Translations under genes and position numbers: made by a program
Part shown: positions 51,026 to 55,265 of the stretch, piece after piece
Layout of the letters: each line of letters opens with the position of its first letter
Position numbering within the stretch: position 1 is the stretch's first letter
Notes under the pieces: generated by a model
What the model was told of the DNA's origin: nothing
Seen by the model: the letters and a program-made list of their open reading frames with translations, nothing else
Databases searched by the model: none
Assembly (NCBI RefSeq): GCF_009674585.1
Contig: NZ_WKJP01000001.1
Span: 744,001 to 808,000, forward strand
DNA: 64,000 nucleotides
Direction of reading: 5' to 3'
Source: Haloferax marinisediminis
GTDB lineage: Archaea; Halobacteriota; Halobacteria; Halobacteriales; Haloferacaceae

Positions 51026-51613
51026 TTACGGTGCTTCGCCAGTCTCGATGGAGAAGTCGGCCTTCGGGTAGGCGACACACGTGAGCGTGTACCCGTTGTC
51101 CATCTCGCCTTCGGAGAGGGTCTCTTGTTTGAAGTGAGTCACGTACTCTTCGGCGGGACCGTCGGTAATCTTCGCGGCACAGGAGACACACGACCCCTGG
51201 CGACACGCGTACGGAAGGTCCATCCCAGCGTCTTCACCTTGGTCGAGGATGGTCTCGTTGCTCGCCAGTTCGATGGTCTCGCCCTGTTTGACGAACTCGA
51301 CTTCGAAGTATTCGACTTCGTCTTCGGGCATGTCGGCGGGACTCTGTTCTTCCTCTTCGGCGGCTGCTTCGCCTTCGAGTTCGGCACCTTCTTCGCCACC
51401 GGCGATTGCACCAGCGACCGCGCCACCGCCGATGGAACGGTTCATTGGTTCGGGGAAGTCCGTCTCCGGGACGGTCGCCGCACGGCGCTCGAGGACCTCT
51501 TGCGTGATGTCGGCGGTTGGTTCCCAACCGGTGCCCTTCGAGAAGTGCAGGGCGACGGCGACGAGTACCAGGACTAATCCGGCCCCGACACCCACCAGAC
51601 TGATGACTGCCAT
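51026..51613 (-). CDS. membrane-anchored 2Fe-2S ferredoxin
   Basis: This 195-residue protein has an N-terminal TM helix (ISLVGVGAGLVLVLVAVALHF), a long Glu/Ala-rich linker (residues 60-95) and a plant-type 2Fe-2S ferredoxin domain with CRQGSCVSC and the fourth ligand in YTLTCVAYP. The anchor keeps the ferredoxin at the membrane, presumably on the cytoplasmic side, for transfer to or from a membrane oxidoreductase. It lies next to the 6-phosphogluconate dehydrogenase gene. Confidence 0.9.
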   Translation of the reverse strand: MAVISLVGVGAGLVLVLVAVALHFSKGTGWEPTADITQEVLERRAATVPETDFPEPMNRSIGGGAVAGAIAGGEEGAELEGEAAAEEEEQSPADMPEDEVEYFEVEFVKQGETIELASNETILDQGEDAGMDLPYACRQGSCVSCAAKITDGPAEEYVTHFKQETLSEGEMDNGYTLTCVAYPKADFSIETGEAP

Positions 51614-52854: not shown

Positions 52855-53949
52855 ATGGACGAACGCATCTACGAGCACGCCGAGGTGCTCGTCGACTGGA
52901 GCGCACGAATCGAGGCCGGTGACGACGTCGTTGTCTCCGTGGGCGAGGGTGCTCACGACCTCGCAGTCGCAGTCGCCGGCGCACTCGGTGAACGCGGCGC
53001 CAACGTCGTCACGACCTACGCCTCCGAAGAGGTTCAGCGGGCGTATCTCCGTGCCCACGACGGTGAGTTCGAACTCCCTGAACACGAACTCGCACTCTAC
53101 GAGGCCGCCGACTCGGTCCTCTTCCTCGGCGGGACGCGAAACACGGCCGCGACAGCCGACGTGCCCACTGAGACGCGGCAGGCCTACGGCCGCGCGACGG
53201 AAGCAGTCCGTGAGGCCCGCATGAACACTGACTGGGTCTCGACGGTCCACCCGACGCGCGCGATGGCCCAACAGGCCGGTATGTCGTACGAGGAGTACGC
53301 CGACTTCGTCTACGACGCAATCCTCCGCGACTGGGAGGAACTCGCCGACGAGATGGCGAACATGAAGGAGGTTCTCGACGAGGGGTCGGAGGTCCGACTC
53401 GTCAAGGAAGACACCGACCTCACGATGTCCATCGAGGGCCGGACGGCGGTCAACTCCGGCGCATCGGTCGTCTACGACTCACACAACCTCCCGTCGGGTG
53501 AGGTGTTCACTGCACCTGTCGAAGACGCCGTTGAGGGCGAGGTGTTCTTCGACGTGCCGATGACGCTCGAAGGCCAGCGCGTCGAAAACGTTCACCTCAC
53601 CTTCGAAGGCGGCGAAGTCGTCGACTTCAGCGCAGAACAGGGTGAAGACGCACTCGCCGGCATCCTCGACACCGACGAGGGCGCACGGCGTCTCGGTGAA
53701 CTCGGCATCGGCATGAACCGCGGCATCGACCGCTTTACCAACAGTATCCTCTTCGACGAGAAGATGGGCGATACGGTCCACCTCGCAGTCGGGCGTGCGT
53801 ACGATGCATGTCTCCCGGAAGGAGTCGAAGGGAACCAGTCTGCGGTCCACGTGGACATGATTACCGATATGAGCGAAGATTCTGTCATCGAAGTCGACGG
53901 TGAGGTAATCCAGCGTAACGGAACGTTCCGGTGGGAGGACGGGTTCTAA
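52855..53949 (+). CDS. M29-family aminopeptidase
   Basis: This 364-residue cytoplasmic metalloaminopeptidase of the thermophilic M29 (AmpS/PepS) family has the expected metal and active-site segments: PSGEVFTAPVEDAVEG, ELGIGMN, DEKMGDTVHLAVGRAYD and HVDMITD. M29 enzymes remove N-terminal residues with a dinuclear metal site. It is divergent from gndA with about 190 bp between starts, which holds a plausible promoter. Confidence 0.92.
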   Translation: MDERIYEHAEVLVDWSARIEAGDDVVVSVGEGAHDLAVAVAGALGERGANVVTTYASEEVQRAYLRAHDGEFELPEHELALYEAADSVLFLGGTRNTAATADVPTETRQAYGRATEAVREARMNTDWVSTVHPTRAMAQQAGMSYEEYADFVYDAILRDWEELADEMANMKEVLDEGSEVRLVKEDTDLTMSIEGRTAVNSGASVVYDSHNLPSGEVFTAPVEDAVEGEVFFDVPMTLEGQRVENVHLTFEGGEVVDFSAEQGEDALAGILDTDEGARRLGELGIGMNRGIDRFTNSILFDEKMGDTVHLAVGRAYDACLPEGVEGNQSAVHVDMITDMSEDSVIEVDGEVIQRNGTFRWEDGF

Positions 53950-54170: not shown

Positions 54171-55001
54171 ATGGCACAATCTAGCCGGACAAGGAGACGG
54201 TTCCTTCAACTGGCGGGGAGTGGCACGGTTCTGAGTCTCGCTGGCTGTCTTGGTGGCGGGGGGACCCAAGAGACAGAGACGACCACTGCTGAGACGACCA
54301 CCACCGAGGAGATGGAAGAAGAACACGAAGAGGAACTTCCAGAAGGTGTCACTGAAGAGGTGTTCGAGCGGGGGCCAGTCCCCGAAGAGTACCAGACTGC
54401 ACTCTCACAAGCGAACGAAGAGAGAGACCCATCCCGGTTAGTTTCTAAGGAAGATGTCCAGTTCCAAGAGGCAGACGACGCCTTCGACGCAGGACTCGCC
54501 ATCGAAGGGACGAACTGTGGGAACTGCGCGGAGTACATCCCGGACAAGAATGGCGACGGTTTCGGGGCCTGCGCGAAGGTCGAAGGGTACATCGACCCCG
54601 AAGACTGGTGTGTCCTCTGGGAATCCATCGAAGAGGCAGAAGCAGAACAAACCGCGACGGAGGAACACGAAGAGGAACTTCCGGAAGGTGTCACCGAAGA
54701 GGTGTTCGAACGAGGGCCCGTTCCGGAAGAGTACCAGACTGCACTCTCACAAGCGAACGAAGAGAGAGACCCAAACCAGTTACTCACTAAGGAGGACGTT
54801 CAGTTCCAAGAGGCAGACGACGCTTTCGACGCGGGGCTCGCCGTCGAAGGGACGAACTGTGGGAACTGCGCGGAGTACATCCCGGACAAGAACGGTGACG
54901 GCTTCGGCGCCTGCGCGAAGGTCGAAGGGTACATCGACCCCGAAGACTGGTGTGTCCTCTGGGAGTCTATCGAAGAAGCAGAGGCAGAACAGGGGAGCTA
55001 A
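54171..55001 (+). CDS. Tat lipoprotein with two tandem HiPIP domains
   Basis: This 276-residue protein has a twin-arginine signal (RTRRRFLQLAG) and lipobox LAGC with Cys26, then a Thr/Glu linker. Two nearly identical 114-residue units follow, each with the high-potential iron-sulfur pattern C-x2-C-x14-C-x12-C: Cys116, 119, 134, 147 and Cys230, 233, 248, 261. Each should hold one 4Fe-4S cluster at high potential, giving a two-cluster electron carrier on the outer membrane face. Partners are unknown; no oxidase or photosystem gene is adjacent. Confidence 0.88.
   Translation: MAQSSRTRRRFLQLAGSGTVLSLAGCLGGGGTQETETTTAETTTTEEMEEEHEEELPEGVTEEVFERGPVPEEYQTALSQANEERDPSRLVSKEDVQFQEADDAFDAGLAIEGTNCGNCAEYIPDKNGDGFGACAKVEGYIDPEDWCVLWESIEEAEAEQTATEEHEEELPEGVTEEVFERGPVPEEYQTALSQANEERDPNQLLTKEDVQFQEADDAFDAGLAVEGTNCGNCAEYIPDKNGDGFGACAKVEGYIDPEDWCVLWESIEEAEAEQGS
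54321..54996 (+). repeat. 342-bp tandem duplication encoding HiPIP domains
   Basis: Unit 1 (54321-54662) and unit 2 (54663 to about 54996) are in frame with a 342-bp period. They differ mainly at third codon positions. The duplication created the second HiPIP domain together with its linker. Confidence 0.93.
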
Positions 55002-55010
55002 CCCGTCGTC

Positions 55011-55265
55011 TCACTCTTGTGCGACGCCGATGTTCTTTAGCATTCCACCGCAGCGTGGGCAGAGCTGTTCGTGAATGCCGAGTCCAGAGCGATAGCCGCA
55101 CGACGTGCATTCGTACCACGAGCGAGTGACGAGTACCGCTGTGGGGCGCTTTACGAGTTCTTCTGGTCGGCGCTCGGCCAGTTCGGTCGGTTCCGGCTCG
55201 ACGAGTTCTCTCGATTCCGCTTCGACGAGGTCTGTCGGCTCACGTTTGATGATATCGTCAGTCAT
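55011..55265 (-). CDS. small rubrerythrin-type zinc-ribbon protein
   Basis: This 84-residue protein has a C-terminal zinc ribbon (CTSCGYRSG and CPRCGG) after a repetitive acidic stretch (REPTDLVEAESRELVEPEPTELAERRPEELV) in which EPTEL-like units recur. The ribbon resembles the rubredoxin-like end of rubrerythrins but lacks a ferritin domain. It may bind zinc or iron; no function is known. It converges on the HiPIP lipoprotein gene with a 9-bp gap. Confidence 0.8.
   Translation of the reverse strand: MTDDIIKREPTDLVEAESRELVEPEPTELAERRPEELVKRPTAVLVTRSWYECTSCGYRSGLGIHEQLCPRCGGMLKNIGVAQE

Follow-up and report, generated by a model that had tools for sequence, protein, structure and literature searches.

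In a window of 64 kb from Haloferax marinisediminis, by which we mean the whole stretch of DNA analysed, a single gene encodes two tandem four-cysteine domains behind a lipobox-type signal. The locus raises the question of which carrier family these domains belong to, how they came to be doubled, and what a doubled form would do. High-potential iron-sulfur proteins (HiPIPs) are one-electron carriers cycling between [4Fe-4S]2+ and [4Fe-4S]3+, they are exported in the folded state by the Tat system, and most known members come from Pseudomonadota. The sequence-only reading had placed a tandem HiPIP lipoprotein in an archaeon, and the host is indeed one. We consider it likely that the protein is an electron carrier held outside the cytoplasm by a lipid anchor, with two HiPIP domains in tandem and one predicted [4Fe-4S] cluster in each; its clusters, potentials, export, anchoring, partners and the advantage of doubling are what we infer.

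The two-unit gene and its direct repeat

The gene comprises 276 codons and a stop (Table 1), and the N-terminus of its product reads MAQSSRTRRRFLQLAGSGTVLSLAGC. A twin-arginine lipobox-type signal is followed by an acidic, Thr-containing linker and by two near-identical units, both of which have the cysteine pattern C-x2-C-x14-C-x12-C, with all eight cysteines intact. The copies of the direct repeat are spaced by 342 nt from start to start, corresponding to 114 codons, so that repeat and translation confirm the two units and the spacing described before. The duplication had also been called clean; the repeat itself stands, and the adjective has to be qualified, as approximately 9% of the bases differ between the 306-nt cores, with a dS of 0.45. 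The amino-acid sequences of the two units share 95% identity across 106 residues. Due to the base differences and the dS value, the duplication is not brand-new. Since the copies differ and the same two-unit gene is present in the same neighbourhood in the assemblies of H. profundi SB29 (G005) and of a further Haloferax genome (G013), the repeat is not an assembly artefact.

Table 1. Features of the two-unit HiPIP gene and of neighbouring genes (positions in the window)
Feature	Position	Strand	Basis and remarks
[2Fe-2S] ferredoxin-domain protein with N-terminal hydrophobic stretch	51026..51613	-	PF00111; stretch read from translation
M29 aminopeptidase family gene	52855..53949	+	PF02073; ends 221 nt upstream; not part of the system
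Two-unit HiPIP lipoprotein gene	54171..55001	+	ORF and translation; PF01355, 30.8 bits (cut-off 22)
Signal peptide (twin-arginine motif TRRRFL, lipobox motif LAGC), Cys26 presumed lipidated	54171..54248	+	Pattern
Thr/Glu-rich N-terminal linker	54249..54335	+	Translation
Direct repeat copy 1	54318..54617	+	300 nt, 92% identical to copy 2
HiPIP unit 1 core, 102 codons	54336..54641	+	Repeat, translation, PF01355
Unit 1 Cys codons	54516-54518, 54525-54527, 54570-54572, 54609-54611	+	Translation
Inter-unit linker AEQTATEEHEEE	54642..54677	+	Translation
Direct repeat copy 2	54660..54959	+	300 nt, 92% identical to copy 1
HiPIP unit 2 core, 102 codons	54678..54983	+	Repeat, translation, PF01355
Unit 2 Cys codons	54858-54860, 54867-54869, 54912-54914, 54951-54953	+	Translation
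Zinc-ribbon/rubrerythrin-like domain protein, convergent	55011..55265	-	PF23455, NF033497

Membership in the HiPIP family

Judged by profile comparisons, both units belong to the HiPIP family. The whole protein exceeds the cut-off of the Pfam model PF01355 (HIPIP) with two matched stretches (Table 1), and the single units, scoring 19.8 and 21.1 bits, fall just under it. All 23 diverse haloarchaeal units of alignment A4 match PF01355, and a profile built from them retrieved 14 matches from the PDB, all 14 of which are HiPIPs, the best being 3h31 of Rhodothermus marinus (E 7e-11). The family assignment made from the letters is upheld by the Pfam score of the whole protein and by these PDB matches; furthermore, single-unit paralogues are annotated by NCBI as high-potential iron-sulfur protein. 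The iron oxidase Iro (NF041615) was rejected as a candidate with 25.3 bits, far under its cut-off of 100. No Pfam match to a cupredoxin domain was found in the protein, which sets it apart from the halocyanins. AlphaFold2 models of the full-length protein (A5) and of the unit (A4) were poor, with mean pLDDT values of 49.6 and 51.1, and were not used; a Foldseek search with the poor full-length model gave 3h31 as best match (E 0.61) and nothing significant.

Known HiPIPs such as 3h31 and the Haloferax protein agree in sequence family, in the order of the four cysteines and in an aromatic residue after the last cysteine. They differ in architecture, since the 14 PDB HiPIPs are chains of 62-142 residues with one matched stretch each, whereas the Haloferax protein combines two domains with a lipobox-type signal. 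A further difference is given by the C-x2-C-x14-C-x12-C spacing together with a D-x-N-x-D motif between Cys2 and Cys3 (e.g., 54543-54557), which resembles the start of a calcium loop, has precisely D, N and D at its three defined positions in 103 of 113 domains and is absent from the 3h31 alignment.

Export signal and proposed anchoring

The signal sequence TRRRFLQLAGSGTVLSLAGC contains RR-x-F-L and L-A-G-C, as identified by eye, and this pattern supports the Tat lipobox signal proposed earlier; the NCBIfam Tat model TIGR01409 reaches 9.9 bits, below its cut-off of 16.7. Gly25-Cys26 of the lipobox is invariant among 29 aligned proteins. Tat-dependent export and lipidation at Cys26 are presumed, and the protein is probably exported and membrane-anchored.

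Occurrence of one- and two-unit HiPIPs

In a census of 391 haloarchaeal genomes with a match threshold of E 1e-4, HiPIP-type matches were present in 94 genomes and in 34 of 86 genera. Two-unit HiPIPs were confirmed in at least 27 of the 391, namely in three Haloferax genomes and in at least 24 genomes with a second, older type, recognised by two adjacent matches and confirmed as one ORF with two units in 24 of 24 cases. The expectation that a two-domain form would be a rarity is therefore not supported, and the protein, a variant with two domains within an established family of carriers, is somewhat less exceptional than first claimed.

The older-type genomes fall into the family codes f1 (9), f4 (5) and f7 (10) and, as counted by eye, into 13 genus codes. 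Named examples are Salinibaculum sp. KK48, Halobellus inordinatus, Halalkalirubrum salinum and halophilic archaeon SHRA6, and some of these records coincide with organisms already in the census. Like the protein studied here, the older type has a lipobox-type signal, an acidic linker and two HiPIP units. The spacing of the units is approximately 102 codons in the older type, 114 in H. marinisediminis and 119 in G005 and G013, and an extra cysteine before the motif is found in unit 1 of 23 of the 24 older-type proteins, as opposed to none of the 24 in unit 2. At the loci concerned (within L092-L115), this cysteine stands immediately before ligand Cys1 of the first unit (CCxNC).

Within Haloferax (15 genomes, including the one studied here), two units occur in three genomes, i.e., our own, G005 and G013, and one unit in the remaining 12, among them H. 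marinum MBLA0078 (G010). The single-unit proteins are encoded at the same locus and share 66-81% identity with the two-unit protein over the aligned part. In case of the single-unit loci examined, the flanking genes are the same, and the difference lies in the presence of one unit only. No phage record matched the HiPIP search, and in the phylum of an Acidobacteria MAG (G403) a HiPIP, with one domain, was found in 1 of 297 genomes. A full-text literature search, with subscription journals largely outside its scope, retrieved no publication that deals with HiPIPs of haloarchaea or with HiPIPs in tandem.

Proposed function and candidate partners

The HiPIP gene stands alone between the M29 peptidase gene and the convergent zinc-ribbon gene. 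For 41 HiPIP loci (24 older two-unit, 7 other and 10 small single), clustering of the ORFs within approximately 8 kb revealed no conserved redox partner. Besides HiPIP itself, the widest neighbour cluster is a universal-stress-type family, which occurs at 12 of the 41 loci in varied places.

According to section 8 of a review (PMC8305020), halocyanin is the probable one-electron carrier to the terminal oxidases in haloarchaea, and about a third of the haloarchaea reportedly lack complex III, with their electron route unresolved; its passages on this subject do not mention HiPIP. Halocyanin and the HiPIP lipoprotein are comparable as extracytoplasmic one-electron carriers, the former according to the same section, and tandem pairs occur in both. 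They differ in that halocyanin is a cupredoxin unrelated in sequence to HiPIP, and the genomes keep both. Halocyanin matches over the cut-off are present in 15 of 15 Haloferax genomes, and 11 matches at E 1e-5 were counted in this genome, whose single match to the cytochrome b model PF00033 lies approximately 0.8 kb from one of them. HiPIP thus adds to halocyanin, and the idea that it acts in place of halocyanin finds no support. Tandem halocyanin pairs in one frame with both domains over the cut-off were counted by eye in 13 of the 15 Haloferax genomes. One such pair in this genome (G000:C1:1558685-1559395, a 380-codon frame) is situated beside NirK at C1:1557366-1558289.

Genome co-occurrence was compared by Fisher tests, whose p-values are only indicative because the genomes are not independent and membership was counted by eye: NirK is present in 16 of 24 older two-unit genomes versus 202 of 367 others (p = 0.30), PF00033 as a marker of complex III in 16 of 24 versus 276 of 367 others (p 0.34) and, with respect to any HiPIP, in 65 of 94 genomes with versus 227 of 297 without (p 0.17). 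None of these comparisons indicates an association, and the suggested link to denitrification was accordingly not found with NirK. H. marinum (G010) and H. mucosum (G012) possess a HiPIP and have no NirK match. As 8 of the 24 older two-unit genomes, counted by eye, have no PF00033 match, the two-unit HiPIP cannot depend on complex III everywhere.

For the carrier role that we favour, the following sequence of steps is proposed. The protein would be exported in the folded state by Tat; cleavage and lipidation at Cys26 would follow, and a flexible acidic linker would tether it to the outer face of the membrane. Each cluster would cycle between 2+ and 3+, accept one electron from a membrane dehydrogenase, whether quinol-oxidising or of another kind, and hand it on to a terminal acceptor, either an oxidase or halocyanin. 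Given the 95% identity of the units, near-equal potentials and equivalent sites would be expected; the likeliest gain from doubling would then be two equivalent carrier sites per anchor, i.e., capacity and local concentration, rather than a downhill relay. HiPIP-type proteins occur in a quarter of the searched haloarchaeal genomes, including genera with working genetics, and the class is a testable candidate for part of the gap in the electron route of organisms lacking complex III. It is tempting to speculate further that an iron-based HiPIP route on the outer face exists beside the copper-based halocyanin, that both carriers were repeatedly doubled on one lipid anchor and selected under hypersaline conditions, and that the two-unit HiPIP is part of the quinol-to-oxidase route where complex III is missing, although we regard this extended scenario as unlikely.

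A different role is suggested by the relatives of the protein. Fusions of a small single-unit HiPIP to NosL, a family of copper chaperones for nitrous oxide reductase, were observed in 8 census genomes (L126:7686-8543; L141-L147) and in Haloarcula sp. GH36 (L136:8878-9696), with both Pfam models over the cut-off in each case. The GH36 fusion gene is located near NosD, SCO, CcdA and ba3-type oxidase genes, and the HiPIP of H. halophila (L135) is apparently the same protein as that of census locus L141. No paper joining ‘high-potential iron-sulfur’ and ‘NosL’ was retrieved by full-text search, subscription journals being largely outside its scope. The second, single-unit HiPIP of this genome (L001:1486-1878, contig 5) lies beside an ORF resembling a heavy-metal P-type ATPase, as seen by eye. 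The plasmid-borne paralogues of H. mediterranei and H. lucentense likewise adjoin such an ATPase, and on the plasmid of H. larsenii one gene separates the two; in H. lucentense and H. larsenii an annotated iron transporter is found near the paralogue as well. A protein of genome G229 (L150:1143-1910) carries, after its HiPIP domain, a plastocyanin/azurin-type domain that binds copper (PF00127, 21.3 bits, cut-off 21.2); this fusion of carriers for two metals fits an exchange of electrons with cupredoxins and so agrees with the carrier role favoured above.

The NosL, copper-domain and P-type ATPase contexts point to copper-linked partners, but for other branches than that of the two-unit protein. 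Haloarchaeal HiPIP lipoproteins might serve to reduce extracytoplasmic copper or iron, or to maintain it in the reduced state, for transport or cofactor delivery instead of main-line respiration, with the two-unit form as a larger version. The NosL fusions, the ATPases and the iron transporters speak for such a role, but in the unit tree the small single-unit proteins group separately (100/99) and no such conserved neighbours occur at the Haloferax two-unit gene or at the older two-unit type, and we hold this role to be improbable. On a plasmid of Halostagnicola larsenii (L139:8992-12876), a single HiPIP gene closely precedes genes for a 4Fe-4S ferredoxin-domain protein and an NrfD/PsrC membrane subunit, a gene set that could possibly represent a quinol-to-HiPIP unit.

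Conservation of the cysteines and predicted metal binding

The haloarchaeal loci were gathered by profile and similarity searches, and the named records by peptide patterns (NGDGxGAC, VEGY...), so that some ascertainment remains in the counts. Cysteines were counted with an HMM built from A4, which scores cysteines and does not require them. The search yielded 146 domains, 115 of them unique, and all four cysteines are present in 113 of the 115, spaced 2-14-12 in 111 of these 113. Loss of the cysteines in homologues had been named as an observation that would speak against a HiPIP, and it was not encountered. Both exceptions stem from a single frameshifted gene, one half each, of Halomicroarcula sp. 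SYNS111 (L060:8850-9300); this gene is read in two frames with the break between Cys2 and Cys3 and is either disrupted or affected by a sequencing error.

A set of four cysteines is in itself no proof of a cluster, and weak zinc-finger matches appeared in the scan of the whole protein, so that the units might instead hold zinc or a different metal in a structural role and take no part in electron transfer. Those matches are under their own cut-offs, the profile is specific to HiPIPs in the PDB search, and all 113 domains retain aromatic residues both at Cys2+3 (Tyr or Phe) and at Cys4+3 (Trp, Tyr or Phe), which makes a structural metal site very improbable and argues for the HiPIP reading.

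Duplication history and selection

The unit tree was built from 80 unique units and 91 columns, few columns for so many rows. In this tree, the older-type first units group together (25 rows, 99/98), and the second units have a clade of their own (25 rows, 100/99), from which one old duplication is deduced. The Haloferax units lie outside both clades, and the two units of H. marinisediminis are sisters (100/89) and not members of the older unit-1 or unit-2 clade. Due to this separate position and the sister relationship, HiPIPs seem, as far as the tree of the units indicates, to have been doubled at least twice in the haloarchaea. Judged by the flanking genes described below, the Haloferax and older two-unit types may share one ancestral locus.

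The DNA tree likewise pairs the two H. marinisediminis units (99/96). Groupings of its unit 2 with unit 2 of G005 and G013 (p-AU 0.001), and of its unit 1 with the corresponding unit 1 (p-AU 0.002), were rejected, both having been picked after the protein tree had been seen. In G005 and G013, unit 1 and unit 2 are separated by dS values of 0.65 and 0.44, respectively, and between the two genomes dS is 0.23 for unit 2 and 0.48 for unit 1. Judged by these distances, the doubling in G005 and G013 is older than their split, despite the value of 0.48 between the first units. A tree of flanking genes does not resolve the order of H. marinisediminis, the single-unit H. marinum (G010), and G005 plus G013. 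The pattern within Haloferax fits either two duplications or one duplication followed by gene conversion in the H. marinisediminis lineage; a shared AEQTA segment in the linkers favours the latter a little.

Between the two H. marinisediminis units, dN is 0.025 and dS 0.447, i.e., dN/dS is about 0.06. Because silent changes greatly exceed amino-acid changes, both units look maintained and functional, and gene conversion could contribute to the low dN. That unit 2 is a slippage by-product without a role, as its presence in only 3 of 15 Haloferax genomes and the single unit of the related H. marinum might suggest, is very improbable, given the low dN/dS (part of which gene conversion could mimic), a doubling in G005 and G013 that predates their split, and eight intact cysteines.

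At L099 and L102 (G166 and G143), an older two-unit HiPIP gene is located within approximately 6.5 kb of peptidase, phosphogluconate dehydrogenase and ferredoxin genes, which also flank the Haloferax HiPIP gene in a different order.
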